Positions 2,627 through 60,548 of a stretch of DNA of 64,000 nucleotides are shown here, one piece after another. The stretch is from Antarctobacter sediminis (GTDB lineage Bacteria > Pseudomonadota > Alphaproteobacteria > Rhodobacterales > Rhodobacteraceae). The stretch lies in assembly GCF_019218285.1 (NCBI RefSeq), contig NZ_JAHUZG010000002.1, forward strand, positions 868,001 through 932,000, read 5' to 3'. Each line of letters begins with the position of its first letter. The stretch's first letter is position 1. The position numbers were made by a program, and so were the translations under genes. The notes beneath the pieces were generated by a model. It was given only the letters and a program-made list of their open reading frames with translations. It made no database searches and was not told the origin of the DNA.

Positions 2627-3565
2627 ATGCGCCACGCCCTTGCCCTTGCCTTTTCCGCCGTCTTGGCTGCTGGCCCGCTGGCTGCCGAGGAGCTTTCGGT
2701 TGACGCCGGTGACGCGCGACTTTCCGGCAGTTTCCTTTCCGCCGAACCGCCCAAGGCGCTCGCAGTGATCCTGCCCGGATCCGGACCAACAGACCGCAAT
2801 GGAAACTCTCCCGCAGGGCTGCGCACTGACGCCTATCGCCTGCTGGCTGAGGCATTGGCCGATCAGGGGATTGCCAGCCTGCGCGCCGACAAACGTGGTG
2901 TCGGGGCCAGCACCGGGGACGGCAATGCGGTGACGCTGGACCTCTACGCCAAGGATGCGGGTCTTTGGATCGATCTTGCTCGTGACAAGACCGGCCTGCC
3001 GTGTGTCTGGCTGATCGGCCATTCCGAAGGTGGCCTGGTGGCCATGCAGACCGCCGAAATTCGCAATGACATCTGCGGCCTGATCCTGCTGGCCGCGCCC
3101 GGACGACCGGTCAGCCAGATCCTGCTGGAGCAACTGCGCGGCGTCCCGGCGTTGCAACCGCATATGGAGGCTCTGCAAAAGGCAATGATCTCGCTGGTGG
3201 CGGGGCACCCCGTGCCGCCCGAAGACCTGCCCGGCCCGCTGATCGGCATCTTTGCGCCGCCGGTGCAACCGTTCCTGATGGATCTGTTCGCCTTCGCCCC
3301 CGCCGAACGCGCGGCCGCGATCGACCTTCCGGTTCTGGTGGTGCAAGGCAGCGCGGACCTGCAAATCAACCCCGATGACGCCGAGCTTTTGGCCACGGCC
3401 CTGCCAAACGGCAGCCTTTTCAGGGTCAACGGCATGACCCATGTGCTGAAGACAGCGCAGGATGAAACCCGCTCCGCTAACCTCGCCACCTACGCCGATC
3501 CGTCCCTGCCTTTGGCCGACGGGCTGGTCGGGGCCATTTCCGACTTCATCCTGACGCCGCGATGA
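2627..3565 (+). CDS. Secreted alpha/beta hydrolase
   Basis: Serine hydrolase of the alpha/beta-hydrolase fold, probably periplasmic. Residues 1-20 form a typical Sec signal peptide ending in an Ala-x-Ala-type site. The nucleophile elbow is GHSEGG (131-136, Ser133). An acid in VVQGSADLQINPDD and a late His in NGMTHVLK complete a plausible triad. LPGSGPTDRNGN (about 49-60) is the oxyanion-hole region seen in the prolyl-oligopeptidase-like S9/BAAT group. The substrate cannot be told. The final codons overlap the start of the downstream ArsR gene by 4 nt, so the two are co-expressed. Confidence 0.85.
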   Translation: MRHALALAFSAVLAAGPLAAEELSVDAGDARLSGSFLSAEPPKALAVILPGSGPTDRNGNSPAGLRTDAYRLLAEALADQGIASLRADKRGVGASTGDGNAVTLDLYAKDAGLWIDLARDKTGLPCVWLIGHSEGGLVAMQTAEIRNDICGLILLAAPGRPVSQILLEQLRGVPALQPHMEALQKAMISLVAGHPVPPEDLPGPLIGIFAPPVQPFLMDLFAFAPAERAAAIDLPVLVVQGSADLQINPDDAELLATALPNGSLFRVNGMTHVLKTAQDETRSANLATYADPSLPLADGLVGAISDFILTPR

Positions 3566-3933
3566 CAGCCCGCCTCGACACCGTTTTTGCCGCACTTGCG
3601 GACCCGACCCGCCGCCGCATCCTGTCGATGCTGCTTGAGGACGACATGGCGGTGACCGACGTGGCCGAACCTTTCGAAATGTCGCTGGCCGCCATCTCGA
3701 AGCATCTTACCGTGCTCTCCTCGGCCGGTCTGATCAGCCAGGAAAAGCGTGGGCGCGTGAAATGGTGCAAGCTCGAGCCGGACGCCCTGCGCGAGGCCAG
3801 CATCTGGATGCAGGCCTTTGGCCAGTTCGACCAGTTCGACCTAGACGGGTTCGAACGTTTTCTGGAACAGGAACTCGCCGATCCGCATGAGGGCGAAGAC
3901 ACACCGCCCCCGGACGACCACGCGCCGACTTGA
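3562..3933 (+). CDS. ArsR-family winged-helix regulator
   Basis: DNA-binding repressor-type protein of 123 residues. ALADPTRRRILSML opens the winged helix, and the recognition region is MSLAAISKHLTVLSSAGL (about 40-57), followed by the wing (KRGRVKWCKL). There is no CVC-type metal box, and only one Cys is present, so a classical metal sensor is unlikely. It resembles the SdpR/YczG-type non-metal ArsR group. The start overlaps the hydrolase stop as ATGA, so it may control the hydrolase operon or answer to its product. Confidence 0.85.
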   Translation: MTARLDTVFAALADPTRRRILSMLLEDDMAVTDVAEPFEMSLAAISKHLTVLSSAGLISQEKRGRVKWCKLEPDALREASIWMQAFGQFDQFDLDGFERFLEQELADPHEGEDTPPPDDHAPT

Positions 3934-21368: not shown

Positions 21369-21391
21369 ATTCACGCATGCGAATGTATATA
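21369..21391 (+). promoter_or_regulatory. SqrR/BigR-like operator upstream of the sulfide oxidoreductase gene
   Basis: ATTC-N8-GAAT occurs at 21369-21384, followed directly by GTATATA (21385-21391). ATTC-N8-GAAT is what I recall as the half-site arrangement bound by SqrR, the persulfide-sensing ArsR-type repressor that controls sqr in Rhodobacter. TATATA could be the -10 element, so a bound repressor would block the promoter. The same layout recurs at 23171-23193 before the SulP gene. Binding is inferred. Confidence 0.6.
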
Positions 21392-21430
21392 GCAGCATAC
21401 ACAGAGTCGCGACGGCCGGAGGAGCGCGCC

Positions 21431-23104
21431 ATGGAATTCCGCAAGATCACCGACGACATCACGGTGTCCCCGCAGATCACCGCAGACCACCTGCAAGAGA
21501 TCGCAGATGCGGGCTATCGCGCCATCATCTGCAACCGTCCTGATGGCGAAGGTGCCGATCAGCCAACCTTTGACGAGATCGCCACCGCCGCGCGGACTAT
21601 TGGGCTAGAGGCGCGTTATCTGCCCATCGTCAGCGGAAAGGTCACGGATCCGGATGCCGATGCATTTGGCCAGTTGATGCGCGAACTGCCCGGGCCGGTC
21701 TTTGCCTATTGCCGCACCGGCACCCGTTCGGCAACGCTCTGGTCGCTCAGTCAGGCCGCCGCGTTGGAACCCGCGACGATCCTCGCCGCCACCAAGCAGG
21801 CGGGATATGACATGGCAGGCGTCGTGCGCCGCATCGTCAACGGCGGCAAGACCCCGACGGACGAAGGCGATGCCAAATTCGACGTGGTCGTGGTGGGCGG
21901 CGGCGCAGCGGGGATCGCCGTGTCCTCCAGCCTCAAGGCGCGCAAGCCGGATCTGAACATCGCCATCCTCGACCCGGCGGATGTGCATTATTATCAACCC
22001 GGTTGGACGATGGTCGGCGGCGGCGTCTTCGAAGCTGCGACCACCGCCCGCACAATGGGCAGCCTGATCCCGCAGGGCGTCCACTGGATCAAAGCCGCCG
22101 TCGCCGCTTTTGAACCGCAGAACAATGCCGTGATCCTCGATGGCTGCCGCGTGGTGAAATACGACCGGCTGATCGTCTGCCCCGGGCTGAAGCTGAACTG
22201 GCACGCCGTCGAAGGGCTGGTCGACACGCTGGGCAAGAACGGCGTGACCTCCAACTATCGCTATGACCTTGCGCCCTACACATGGGAACTGGTCAGCAAG
22301 ATGGTTGAAGGGCGCGCGATCTTTACCCAGCCGCCGATGCCGATCAAATGCGCCGGAGCCCCGCAAAAGGCCATGTATCTTTCTGGTGACCACTGGTTCC
22401 GCACCGGCCGCCTGAAAGACATCGACATCCAGTTCATGAACGCCGGGGGCGTGCTCTTTGGCGTCAAGGACTACGTTCCGGCACTGATGGACTACGTTCA
22501 GAAATACGATGCCTCGCTGAACTTCTTCCACAACCTCGTGGCCGTGGACGGCCCCGCGAAGAAAGCCACGTTCAAGGTCGCCAAACCCGATGAAGATCCG
22601 ACCGAAGTCACCGTCGACTTTGACATGATGCACGTCTGCCCGCCGCAGACCGCGCCGGATTTCATCCGGGTTTCGCCCCTGGCCGACGCGGCGGGATGGG
22701 TCGACGTCGATCAGGCCACGCTGCGGCACAAGACCTATGACAACATCTGGTCGCTTGGGGACGTGATGAACGCGCCCAACGCCAAGACGGCCGCCGCCGC
22801 GCGGATGCAGGCGCCCGTGGTGGCCGAAAACCTGGTCTCCGACATGCGCGGCCTCAGCCCCCATGCGGTCTACAACGGCTACGGCTCCTGCCCGCTGACC
22901 GTCGAGAAGGGCAAGATCGTGCTGGCCGAGTTTGGCTATGGCGGTGCCCTGCTGCCGTCTTTCCCCAAATGGCTGCTGGACGGGACCAAGCCGACGCGGG
23001 CCGCTTGGCTGCTCAAGGAACAGATCCTGCCGCCGGTCTATTGGAAGGCCATGCTGCGCGGCAAGGAATGGATGGCAAAACCGGAAAGCGTTTCGGCGGG
23101 ATGA
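21431..23104 (+). CDS. TIGR01244-domain / sulfide:quinone-oxidoreductase-like fusion
   Basis: Two-domain protein of 557 residues. Residues 1-about 140 are a TIGR01244 sulfurtransferase/phosphatase-like domain (as in Blh) with active-site AYCRTGTRS and Cys94. From 150 a FAD-dependent oxidoreductase begins with VVVGGGAAG. Cys250, Cys307 and Cys403, plus YGSCPLT near 487, match the SQOR-type SQR layout, so it probably oxidises sulfide to persulfide and may pass it to the rhodanese-like domain. The start at 21431 has GGAGG; upstream in-frame sequence covers the operator and is rejected. It is followed by a SulP transporter gene. Confidence 0.85.
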   Translation: MEFRKITDDITVSPQITADHLQEIADAGYRAIICNRPDGEGADQPTFDEIATAARTIGLEARYLPIVSGKVTDPDADAFGQLMRELPGPVFAYCRTGTRSATLWSLSQAAALEPATILAATKQAGYDMAGVVRRIVNGGKTPTDEGDAKFDVVVVGGGAAGIAVSSSLKARKPDLNIAILDPADVHYYQPGWTMVGGGVFEAATTARTMGSLIPQGVHWIKAAVAAFEPQNNAVILDGCRVVKYDRLIVCPGLKLNWHAVEGLVDTLGKNGVTSNYRYDLAPYTWELVSKMVEGRAIFTQPPMPIKCAGAPQKAMYLSGDHWFRTGRLKDIDIQFMNAGGVLFGVKDYVPALMDYVQKYDASLNFFHNLVAVDGPAKKATFKVAKPDEDPTEVTVDFDMMHVCPPQTAPDFIRVSPLADAAGWVDVDQATLRHKTYDNIWSLGDVMNAPNAKTAAAARMQAPVVAENLVSDMRGLSPHAVYNGYGSCPLTVEKGKIVLAEFGYGGALLPSFPKWLLDGTKPTRAAWLLKEQILPPVYWKAMLRGKEWMAKPESVSAG

Positions 23105-23170
23105 TACTGTGCCGGCCGGGCCTTGGACAGGCCCGGTCCCATTCGGGAAAATTGCGTCGGCCTCTTTTAA

Positions 23171-23193
23171 ATTCCATTTTATGAATGTATATA
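23171..23193 (+). promoter_or_regulatory. SqrR/BigR-like operator upstream of the SulP gene
   Basis: ATTC-N8-GAAT at 23171-23186 followed by GTATATA (23187-23193), an exact parallel to 21369-21391. The N8 sequences differ, so conservation of the half-sites and the trailing GTATATA is not just local duplication. It lies in the 139-nt gap after the SQR-like gene, so the SulP gene probably has its own regulated promoter. Confidence 0.6.
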
Positions 23194-23243
23194 CTCAAGG
23201 AACGCGACTCGGGTCCGATCCCGAACCGACAGCAGGATTCGCC

Positions 23244-25010
23244 ATGACCCTCCCTTGCCAAGTGACCCGCTACCTGCCGATCCTCGACTGGGGGCGCAGC
23301 TACAACCGCGAAACCGCCTCTGCCGACATGCTGGCCGCGGTGATCGTGACGATCATGCTGATCCCGCAGTCGCTGGCCTATGCGCTGTTGGCGGGGCTGC
23401 CCGCGGAGATGGGGCTTTATGCCTCGATCCTGCCGCTGGTGGCCTACGCCATTTTCGGCACCAGCCGTGCGCTGGCTGTCGGCCCTGTGGCTGTCGTTTC
23501 TCTCATGACCGCCGCCGCCATCGGCAACCTTGGTCTGACCGATCCCGTCGAAATCGCCGTTGCAGCCGGGACACTGGCCTTCATTTCGGGGGTGATGCTG
23601 TCACTACTCGGGCTTCTTCGGCTCGGCTTCCTCGCCAACTTTCTGTCGCATCCGGTTATCGCAGGTTTCATCACCGCGTCGGGCGTGCTGATCGCGGCTT
23701 CGCAGCTAAAGCACATCCTTGGCATCGACATGCACGGTCACACGCTGGTCGAACTGATCCGCACGATGTTCAGCCACATTGGCGAAACCAATGTCTTTAC
23801 CGTCGTGCTTGGCCTTGCGGCGCTGGCCTTTCTTTTCTGGGTTCGCAAGGGGCTGAAACCGCTCTTGTTGAAAAAGGGCGTGCCGCCGAAACTGGCCGAT
23901 GTCCTGACCAAGGCGGGCCCCGTCGCCGCCGTTGTCGTCACCACACTGGTTACTTGGATCTTTGGCCTGTCCGGCGTCGGTGTCCGTATCGTCGGCGAGA
24001 TCCCGATGGGCCTGCCGCCGCTTACGGCACCCAGCTTTTCACCGTCGCTGTGGAATGACCTGTTCATGTCGGCCTTGCTGATCTCGATCATCGGGTTTGT
24101 CGAATCCGTCTCGGTGGCGCAAACGCTGGCCGCCAAACGCCGCCAACGCATCTCGCCGGACCAAGAGCTGATCGGGCTTGGCACCTCGAACATCGCATCG
24201 GCGGTGTCGGGCGGTTTCCCGGTCACCGGCGGCTTTTCCCGCTCGGTGGTGAATTTCGACGCGGGTGCTGCCACCCCCGCTGCCGGGGCCTATACGGCCG
24301 TTGGCATCGCCATCGCGACGCTGTTGCTGACCCCGCTGCTGTACTTTCTGCCCAAGGCCACGCTGGCCGCGACCATCATTGTCGCCGTGCTGAGCCTTGT
24401 CGATTTCTCGATCCTCAAGAAAAGCTGGGGTTATTCCAAGGTCGATTTCGCTGCTGTCTTTGCCACGATCGTTCTGACGCTGGGGTTTGGCGTGGAACTG
24501 GGCGTTTCGGCCGGTGTTCTGATCTCGATCGGGCTGCACCTGTACAAGACCTCGCGCCCCCATGTGGCCGAGGTGGGGCTTGTCCCCGGCACCCAGCATT
24601 TCCGCAACATCAAGCGCCACAAGGTCGACACCAGGCCGCATCTGGTCAGCCTGCGGGTCGACGAAAGCCTGTATTTCGCCAACGCCCGTTTCCTTGAGGA
24701 CTACGTTCTGGCCCGTGTCACCTGTGACCAGCCGCTGGAACACGTGGTCCTGATGTTCCCCGCCGTGAACGAGGTCGACATGAGCGCGCTGGAAACACTG
24801 GAGGAACTGAACCGCCGCCTGTCGGAAATGGGCATCAAGATGCACCTCTCCGAGGTCAAAGGCCCGGTGATGGACCGGCTGCGACGGTCGCATTTCCTCG
24901 ACGACCTGACTGGCACGGTTTTTCTGTCCCAGTACGACGCATGGCAGGCCTTGGGGGAACCCGCGCCCAAAGCCGAAAGAGGCTCACCCTCCGAGGTGGA
25001 CGCGGCCTGA
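23244..25010 (+). CDS. SulP-family anion transporter with STAS domain
   Basis: Sulfate/bicarbonate-type SLC26/SulP permease of 588 residues. A long membrane domain (about 30-430) opens with the family signature MLIPQSLAYALLAGLPAEMGLY and has the Pro-rich GFPVTGGFSRS segment. A C-terminal STAS domain (about 450-560; VLMFPAVNEVDMSALETLEEL) follows. The ATG at 23244 was chosen because longer readings start inside the operator. Next to an SQR-like enzyme it may export sulfate or sulfite from sulfide oxidation, or import sulfate; direction is not seen in sequence. Confidence 0.88.
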   Translation: MTLPCQVTRYLPILDWGRSYNRETASADMLAAVIVTIMLIPQSLAYALLAGLPAEMGLYASILPLVAYAIFGTSRALAVGPVAVVSLMTAAAIGNLGLTDPVEIAVAAGTLAFISGVMLSLLGLLRLGFLANFLSHPVIAGFITASGVLIAASQLKHILGIDMHGHTLVELIRTMFSHIGETNVFTVVLGLAALAFLFWVRKGLKPLLLKKGVPPKLADVLTKAGPVAAVVVTTLVTWIFGLSGVGVRIVGEIPMGLPPLTAPSFSPSLWNDLFMSALLISIIGFVESVSVAQTLAAKRRQRISPDQELIGLGTSNIASAVSGGFPVTGGFSRSVVNFDAGAATPAAGAYTAVGIAIATLLLTPLLYFLPKATLAATIIVAVLSLVDFSILKKSWGYSKVDFAAVFATIVLTLGFGVELGVSAGVLISIGLHLYKTSRPHVAEVGLVPGTQHFRNIKRHKVDTRPHLVSLRVDESLYFANARFLEDYVLARVTCDQPLEHVVLMFPAVNEVDMSALETLEELNRRLSEMGIKMHLSEVKGPVMDRLRRSHFLDDLTGTVFLSQYDAWQALGEPAPKAERGSPSEVDAA

Positions 25011-59816: not shown

Positions 59817-60548
59817 ATGGCAGGACGCAAACCGATACCGCTGATCGTTGCCGGGTTGCTGGCGCTGCTGTTCATTGTGCTGGCCGCCTTGATCTACAGC
59901 GCCTCGTCAAAGGCTGCGCGGTTTGATCGGGACGGAGTCGAAACCTCGGCGACCTTCCTGTCTGGCCGCACGGTACGCTATCAAAGCCAGCCCGAGAAAC
60001 CGGTGCGCTATCGCCACTATGCCACGGTCCGCTTCGAAGCCGGCGGCCAAGTTGTCACGGCAGAGGCCGAGGTCACAGGGGATTTCCTGCGCGCGCATGA
60101 TCCGGGCGCGCGGGTTCCGGTGACTTATCTGCCGGACGACCCGCAAACCGTGTTGGTGGACCCTCTGCACGAAAGCCGCGGACTGGCGCTGGCTTGGATG
60201 TTCCTGATCTTTTTTGCCGGTGCGCTGCTTTGGCCCCTTTGGCAGCGATGGCGCACGCGGGGTGCCCCGCCTCGTCCTTCGCCAGAACGCGCGCCGCGCC
60301 CCAAGGCCGGGCCGATGCCGCGCTGGGTGCGTTTGGTTTCGATTGTACTGATGCTCTGCGCGCTGGGGTCGTTTTTCACCCTGTCGGTCTGGCTGCGCTA
60401 CGCGGTCGAAGCCTGGGCCCTGCCGCATGTCGGCTGGGTCAGCCTTCCCTTGGGCATGGCGGCAATGCTGGTGCCGCCTGTGGGATTCGGCTTGGCGAAT
60501 TTGACGTTGATCTGGGGGGTGCAGAGGTTTGGGCGCGCGGCGGGGTAG
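59817..60548 (+). CDS. DUF3592-type membrane protein
   Basis: 243 residues with membrane helices at about 8-26, 123-142, 176-196 and 208-232. Between helices 1 and 2 lies a beta-rich extracytoplasmic domain (about 38-118; VRYRHYATVRFEAGGQVVTAEAEV, VPVTYLPDDPQTVLVDP) typical of DUF3592. Function unknown. The start at 59817 has AGAGG; an ATG 8 codons upstream (59793) is an alternative. It is divergent from gpmI with 164 nt between. Confidence 0.75.
   Translation: MAGRKPIPLIVAGLLALLFIVLAALIYSASSKAARFDRDGVETSATFLSGRTVRYQSQPEKPVRYRHYATVRFEAGGQVVTAEAEVTGDFLRAHDPGARVPVTYLPDDPQTVLVDPLHESRGLALAWMFLIFFAGALLWPLWQRWRTRGAPPRPSPERAPRPKAGPMPRWVRLVSIVLMLCALGSFFTLSVWLRYAVEAWALPHVGWVSLPLGMAAMLVPPVGFGLANLTLIWGVQRFGRAAG

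Follow-up and report, generated by a model that had tools for sequence, protein, structure and literature searches.

The element ATTC-N8-GAAT has been deduced as the binding site of SqrR (PMC9774250), a regulator that, in the consulted portions of the literature, controls sqr and a rhodanese gene and is freed by a polysulfide bridge between two cysteines (PMC9995734). For SoxR, too, such a bridge between two cysteines is described as the cause of its release (PMC10451225). An sqrR mutant of R. capsulatus shows trxC raised more than 20-fold, and the trxC primer printed in the same article carries ATTCCGCAACGCGAAT beside the trxC ATG (PMC10044876).

Two elements of this arrangement occur in the window, i.e. 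the whole stretch of 64 kb analysed here (C2:868001-932000 of a genome of 5.12 Mb in 21 contigs). One precedes a gene for a fusion of DUF442 with sulfide:quinone oxidoreductase (SQR) and the other a gene for a SulP transporter. We consider it very probable that both are operators nested in promoters, where a persulfide-sensing ArsR-family repressor of the SqrR/SoxR/BigR type, encoded in trans, would bind and from which induction would proceed. Judged by sequence, the predicted operators and with them SqrR-type control of SQR and SulP appear well supported. The initial annotation had ascribed the arrangement to SqrR, in agreement with the site deduced in PMC9774250.

Genes, sites and related loci

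The first gene (21431..23104, forward strand) encodes a DUF442 (BLH_phosphatase, TIGR01244)-SQR fusion protein of 557 aa. Its N-terminal DUF442 domain matches PF04273 (5.4e-27) and, over the cut-off, TIGR01244, and residues 150-545 match human SQOR (1.7e-95), a homology that extends over the whole SQR domain. The best match among named genomes, from which records of the own genome were possibly excluded, is a protein of Mameliella alba with 93% identity. Human SQOR works with two redox cysteines, and the SQR part of the window protein does not have both. The cysteine of the KCAGAP motif is present in all 81 SQR orthologues, whereas the position of the GDC cysteine is occupied by valine in 78 of the 81 and by alanine in two (one could not be read). 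At the HVCPP motif, 51 of 81 orthologues have the cysteine, four a threonine and one a valine, and the pattern was not found in 25. A variant or shifted pair of redox cysteines is therefore possible in the window SQR. The second gene (23244..25010, forward strand) encodes a SulP family anion transporter of 588 aa with a STAS domain. The assignment follows from PF00916 (1.3e-102), PF01740 (STAS) and TIGR00815, the last with 433.6 bits against a cut-off of 380.45 bits.

Operator 1 (21369..21384, forward strand, by sequence match) ends 46 bp short of the start codon (ATG, 21431) of the DUF442-SQR gene and reads, together with its tail, ATTCACGCATGCGAAT+GTATATA (21369-21391). Operator 2 (23171..23186, forward strand, by sequence match) ends 57 bp before the SulP ATG at 23244 and reads ATTCCATTTTATGAAT+GTATATA (23171-23193). 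Both elements are present exactly where the initial annotation had located them, and they are the only occurrences of ATTC-N8-GAAT-GTATATA in the 64 kb. A Markov model of first order, derived from the whole window and disregarding the higher A+T content of intergenic DNA, predicts about 1.5e-6 copies of the full motif where two were observed. The count of the bare motif is weak by itself: ATTC-N8-GAAT has three matches in the 64 kb, shuffled sequences contained 0.80 on average, and at least three were found in 5 of 100 shuffles. The third match, at 60485, lies within a predicted gene and has no GTATATA tail, and was dropped. The N8 parts of the two sites share one of eight bases, in line with the earlier remark that they differ.

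Related loci were defined as the best 80 of 586, and a SulP gene was found in 76 of these 80. Among the best 80 of 586 loci, a search for ATTC-Nk-GAAT with k from 0 to 24 gave 51 matches for a spacing of eight, whereas the 24 other spacings ranged from 0 to 16. The exact site occurs before SQR in 21 of the best 80 of 586 loci, starting 47-294 bp upstream, and at most 300 bp before SulP in 17 of the 76 SulP-bearing loci among them; the N8 part varies among the upstream sites of both genes in relatives. The comparison with relatives that the initial annotation had called for thus gave a divided answer: sites are kept before the orthologous genes, with drifting N8, chiefly in the near lineage, but are absent from many distant relatives that keep the genes and from one close relative (L109). 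An exact site in the 300 bp before SQR is missing from 59 of the best 80 of 586 loci, which counts against the reading as SqrR operators. The operator label changes three times on a quickly built SQR tree and is hence largely a lineage trait, which may have had a single origin. The site-bearing loci belong mostly to one lineage and therefore are not independent of each other.

The SulP transporter could serve to import an anion needed in sulfide oxidation (sulfate or bicarbonate) rather than to export a product, which is quite conceivable if somewhat doubtful. The name of TIGR00815, sulfate permease, agrees with import, as does the model of the bicarbonate transporter BicA, which matches the protein below its cut-off; the pairing with SQR in 76 of the 80 loci (best 80 of 586), mostly with a dioxygenase as well, fits an oxidation product better.

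In 56 of the best 80 of 586 loci, the SQR gene follows a persulfide-dioxygenase gene, an arrangement that counts against a simple story. None of these 56 dioxygenase-SQR loci has the exact site within 300 bp of SQR; in six (L087, L095, L099, L101, L112 and L124) it is found farther upstream, at a distance of 1.7-2.4 kb from SQR and close to the first gene of YeeE or YgaP-like type. Tracing the loci to their operon heads, where nine of the 56 were dropped as no SQR frame was called and some others were cut by contig ends, located the site at 4 of 47 heads; this count is below the direct count of six because L087 and L101 were traced wrongly. A Crp/Fnr-type protein (two examples were scanned and matched cNMP_binding and HTH_Crp_2) is encoded in the fetched flank of 36 of the 56 dioxygenase-SQR loci against 1 of the 24 others. 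The latter locus, L117, has no operator, and consequently none of the 21 loci with the operator directly before SQR carries a Crp/Fnr-type gene. In L095, such a gene occurs together with the operator farther upstream. A run frequently seen in those of the loci L074-L136 that have a dioxygenase gene ahead of SQR (e.g. L134:3235-5073) comprises genes for a Crp/Fnr-type protein, a YgaP-like transmembrane protein, two YeeE-type proteins, persulfide dioxygenase, SQR and SulP. A common palindrome before the dioxygenase gene of 53 dioxygenase-SQR loci was rejected as a candidate, the search having returned just G+C-rich words in at most 10 of the 53.

The dioxygenase homologue of the host genome is located on contig C4 and is preceded only by a one-mismatch version of the site. 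Among the 22 best dioxygenase matches (L228-L249, from 22 genomes) one has the exact site within 300 bp (L244) and several have a degenerate ATTC-N8-nnAT at the same place, and among the more distant paralogues (L250-L257) five of eight have the exact site; the dioxygenase starts in L228-L257 are guesses, a few of them evidently wrong. In L231 and many others of L228-L249, a conserved element, CTTGAAACAC-ATTCA-N-TTT...TATATG, lies about 42-49 bp before the dioxygenase start; it may be a single half-site or a degenerate operator in the corresponding place of the promoter.

Sites across the genome and candidate repressors

The genome contains 39 bare ATTC-N8-GAAT sites; 20 were assigned to the interior of predicted genes, in one case wrongly. 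Genes near sites were called by a small finder based on codon usage, whose starts are rough (the SulP start of L172 is 470 bp off its site), and the site at C2:865437 was scored as inside solely since the start of the TsoY gene was called too early. Ten of the 20 sites outside genes adjoin sulfur genes or metallo-beta-lactamase genes, namely those for DUF442-SQR, SulP, TsoY (a tandem pair of sites), two metallo-beta-lactamase proteins (one just below the Pfam cut-off), a rhodanese, a sox-region cytochrome, SoxX and SoxC, the last two named by profiles over cut-off. The other ten are without evident sulfur link and include the sites at hemA and at a gene for a DUF302-like protein. When the tail was required as RTATA, in the kind of genome scan that the initial annotation had recommended, three sites were obtained in the 5.1 Mb, and their downstream genes are those of DUF442-SQR, SulP and a TsoY-family protein. 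A control with the reversed pattern (39 against 4 sites) was discarded as unfair because CTTA/TAAG and ATTC/GAAT differ in frequency; spacing controls (other values of k, and N7) were therefore used in its place.

Three of these neighbourhoods may be described individually. The gene of the TsoY-family membrane protein (L028:5413-6689, C2:865413) lies about 2.6 kb before the window and is preceded by two tandem SqrR-type operators. At C1:626655 (L030), ATTC-N8-GAAT lies 59 bp before hemA, the gene of 5-aminolevulinate synthase (profile over cut-off). DUF302-like proteins of secreted appearance, with profile scores below cut-off, adjoin the operator in two genera (L049:1858-2298, at C13:5040, and L273:1542-1976).

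HTH_5 has eleven matches in the genome, and in two of these proteins both SqrR cysteines align. The initial annotation had suggested looking for a two-cysteine ArsR-type regulator outside the window, and the genome encodes two, one of them inside a sox cluster. This protein (L027:8741-9076) scores 122 bits to entries 6o8k-6o8o, listed as 'ArsR family', which we take to be R. capsulatus SqrR; the profiles of SoxX, SoxA, SoxB and SoxC are matched over their cut-offs around it. The second, a paralogue at C3:246788 with both cysteines, scores 110 bits. With 94.7 and 109.2 bits, the two proteins stay below the 155-bit cut-off of the BigR equivalog NF040642 (NCBIfam) and are hence called SqrR-type and not BigR. 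The statement that no SqrR gene is present in the window was right in substance: the lone ArsR-type protein encoded there (3562-3933) has one cysteine, passes just the general ArsR/SmtB model and is marginal with the BigR model (20.8 bits). Its gene overlaps the end of an alpha/beta-hydrolase-like gene and is not of SqrR type.

Regulation in trans by a single SqrR, as initially proposed, holds as far as the location of the repressor genes is concerned, but two proteins and not one could bind. A homologue of the sox-type repressor was found in 48 of 49 related genomes searched (from 50 of the 80 loci, with L112 left out); its presence was rejected as a separator of site-bearing from site-less genomes, because 48 of 49 have some SqrR homologue. 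The surroundings of the SqrR gene (1.5 kb) are free of exact sites in all 30 relatives examined, and thus autoregulation through ATTC-N8-GAAT was not seen. The regulator may be the paralogue at C3:246788 instead of the sox-cluster repressor, or the sites may be common to both, which we regard as unlikely yet worth keeping in view. The paralogue has both cysteines and an alignment score to R. capsulatus SqrR not far below that of the sox-cluster protein. The metagenome-assembled genome L059 carries both sites and shows only a repressor of this second kind (60% identity), which also counts against the simple story. In the consulted part of PMC12423496, two paralogues of Hyphomicrobium bind the same DNA fragments. 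The gene neighbours at C3:246788 are, however, without visible sulfur link, whereas the rival repressor belongs to the sox cluster, where soxX, soxC and the cytochrome gene are preceded by sites.

Promoter context and family-wide occurrence

Upstream regions of site-bearing related loci were aligned together with those of the window (22 SQR and 18 SulP regions). The half-sites are invariant in this alignment because the rows were chosen for having them. The N8 positions carry about 0.1-0.8 bits each, and positions +17 to +21 (G/A-T-A-T-A) carry 0.6-2.0 bits. The other flank is no mirror image: it reads CTTTACAA at -8 to -1 in the SulP set, with CTTTACA-like conservation at -8 to -2 in the 18 regions, and is weak in the SQR set. 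The tail is conserved on one side and unmirrored on the other, and was therefore taken as a -10 box, with the operator filling the promoter spacer. In the SQR promoter, the proposed -10 would be TATATA (21386..21391, forward strand), the trailing element of the initial annotation. For SulP, a promoter scan and conservation point to TTTAAA (23166..23171, forward strand) as a -35-like hexamer, which overlaps the start of operator 2 by a single base, and to TATATACT (23188..23195, forward strand) as the -10 region. The consensus promoter scan gave TTTAAA-18-TATACT over the SulP site (9 of 12) and called no promoter over the SQR site. The trailing GTATATA, which the initial annotation had treated as an element selected along with the half-sites, is indeed conserved with them, but as judged from the alignment is better read as a promoter -10 box than as a part of the operator.

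The pattern ATTC-N8-GAAT-RTATA was also searched across the family to which the window belongs, with a single genome for each genus (149 in all), and gave 43 matches in 33 genomes, against 4 for the reversed pattern and 7 for ATTC-N7-GAAT-RTATA. Neighbours were examined for all 43 N8 matches (41 fetched loci and the two window sites), and 31 of the 43 adjoin sulfur genes identified by profile. These encode SulP (7), TsoY-family proteins (7), rhodaneses (5), DUF442-SQR (3), other SQR-like oxidoreductases (2, with the SQR model below cut-off), Blh/ETHE1-type dioxygenases (2, with the Blh model below its two-domain cut-off), YeeE-type sulfur transporters (2), DsrE (2) and thioredoxin-2 (1). The remaining 12 matches are not beside a gene counted as sulfur-linked and count against the reading as SqrR operators; four of them adjoin recurrent or related families that were not counted (HlyD, 2; DUF302, 1; metallo-beta-lactamase, 1), and eight are without visible link. 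The gene finder called no neighbour at three of the seven N7 loci (L258, L259 and L264), so that a tblastn comparison, free of gene calls, was added. With ten proteins of the sulfur set as queries, a homologue was detected in 30 of the 41 fetched N8 loci, eight of which had supplied a query, and in none of the seven N7 loci. HlyD-type membrane fusion proteins, possibly parts of efflux systems, adjoin the operator in L193:1555-2514 and L275:1693-2685, and in L275 a Trx2 homologue is encoded on the other side of the operator.

The motif might represent a class of promoters with an extended -10 and an AT-rich spacer and no repressor site. The likeness of the tail to a -10 box and the conserved -35-like hexamer of the SulP set are what such a class would show, but the drop from 43 to 7 matches upon changing N8 to N7 and the lack of sulfur-set homologues in all seven N7 loci make it very improbable; to our knowledge, a strict spacing of eight bases between ATTC and GAAT is not a feature of promoters. 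Chance or recent copying of the sites has a negligible probability, for although the bare motif is frequent (39 in the genome, 20 of them scored within genes), the full motif is hardly expected in the window, the N8 parts agree at one of eight bases, relatives carry sites at both places, and the spacing count and the genome and family scans contradict it.

Proposed control and comparison with known systems

In the mechanism proposed for the SqrR-type operators, each promoter would have its 16-bp operator placed between a -35-like hexamer and the TATA -10 box, taking up the spacer, and from this position a bound repressor would exclude RNA polymerase. Sulfide would raise the cellular level of persulfide and polysulfide, a polysulfide bridge would form between the two sensor cysteines, and the repressor would be released. 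DUF442-SQR and SulP would then be made, along with products of genes elsewhere in the genome (sox genes, rhodanese, metallo-beta-lactamase proteins and TsoY). SQR is expected to oxidize sulfide to persulfide, the DUF442 domain to move sulfane sulfur and persulfide dioxygenase to yield sulfite. The oxyanion formed in this way, be it sulfite, thiosulfate or sulfate, would most likely be transported through the membrane by SulP, whose putative substrate and direction are suggested by its gene context.

Tentatively, and with nearly an even chance in our estimation, a dioxygenase-SQR-SulP operon, often accompanied by a Crp/Fnr-type regulator, was split in one Roseobacter lineage. SQR and SulP would each have gained an SqrR operator nested in the promoter spacer and thereby joined a trans regulon that includes the TsoY membrane protein; TsoY and SulP (7 each of 43) would then be core SqrR targets throughout the family. 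Regulators would thus have been exchanged on one enzyme-transporter pair, a Crp/Fnr-type protein encoded nearby against SqrR in trans. An operator nested between -35 and -10 might serve as a signature by which sulfide- or persulfide-responsive genes are read in roseobacter genomes, and would link both SulP and the TsoY family with the sensing of persulfide.

Operator, type of repressor and SQR-SulP gene pair are all known already, the last together with a dioxygenase in the part of PMC6548844 consulted. SulP and TsoY as targets of an SqrR-type repressor may be new: SqrR and SulP were not found together as whole words in a literature word search, and words for motif, binding site and transporter were not found in the searched part of PMC9143464.

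The Methylophaga mto clusters similarly have dioxygenase, SQR and SulP genes side by side, whereby the consulted part of PMC6548844 leaves co-regulation open; in our case, the dioxygenase homologue is encoded on a different contig. The SoxR proteins of sox clusters in Hyphomicrobium, Pseudaminobacter and Paracoccus share the ArsR type, the action on sox clusters and the release by a sulfur bridge between two cysteines, and neither a site sequence nor control of SQR-SulP was found in the part of PMC10451225 consulted. With the BigR operon of Xylella and Agrobacterium, as described in the consulted part of PMC5823870, the locus has in common a BigR-type repressor and a DUF442 sulfurtransferase domain linked to sulfide oxidation. 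There, however, DUF442 is fused to a dioxygenase (Blh), the transporter is TauE-related and the repressor is encoded within the operon, whereas the present locus combines DUF442 with SQR in one protein, has SulP as its transporter and would be repressed in trans. The SqrR regulon of R. capsulatus, with its ATTC-N8-GAAT operator, two-cysteine repressor and the targets SQR, rhodanese and trxC (consulted parts of PMC9774250, PMC9995734 and PMC10044876), resembles the present system in operator and repressor. In contrast to it, the putative targets here are the DUF442-SQR fusion, SulP and TsoY, the nearest repressor is encoded within a sox cluster, and the two window genes have separate operators.
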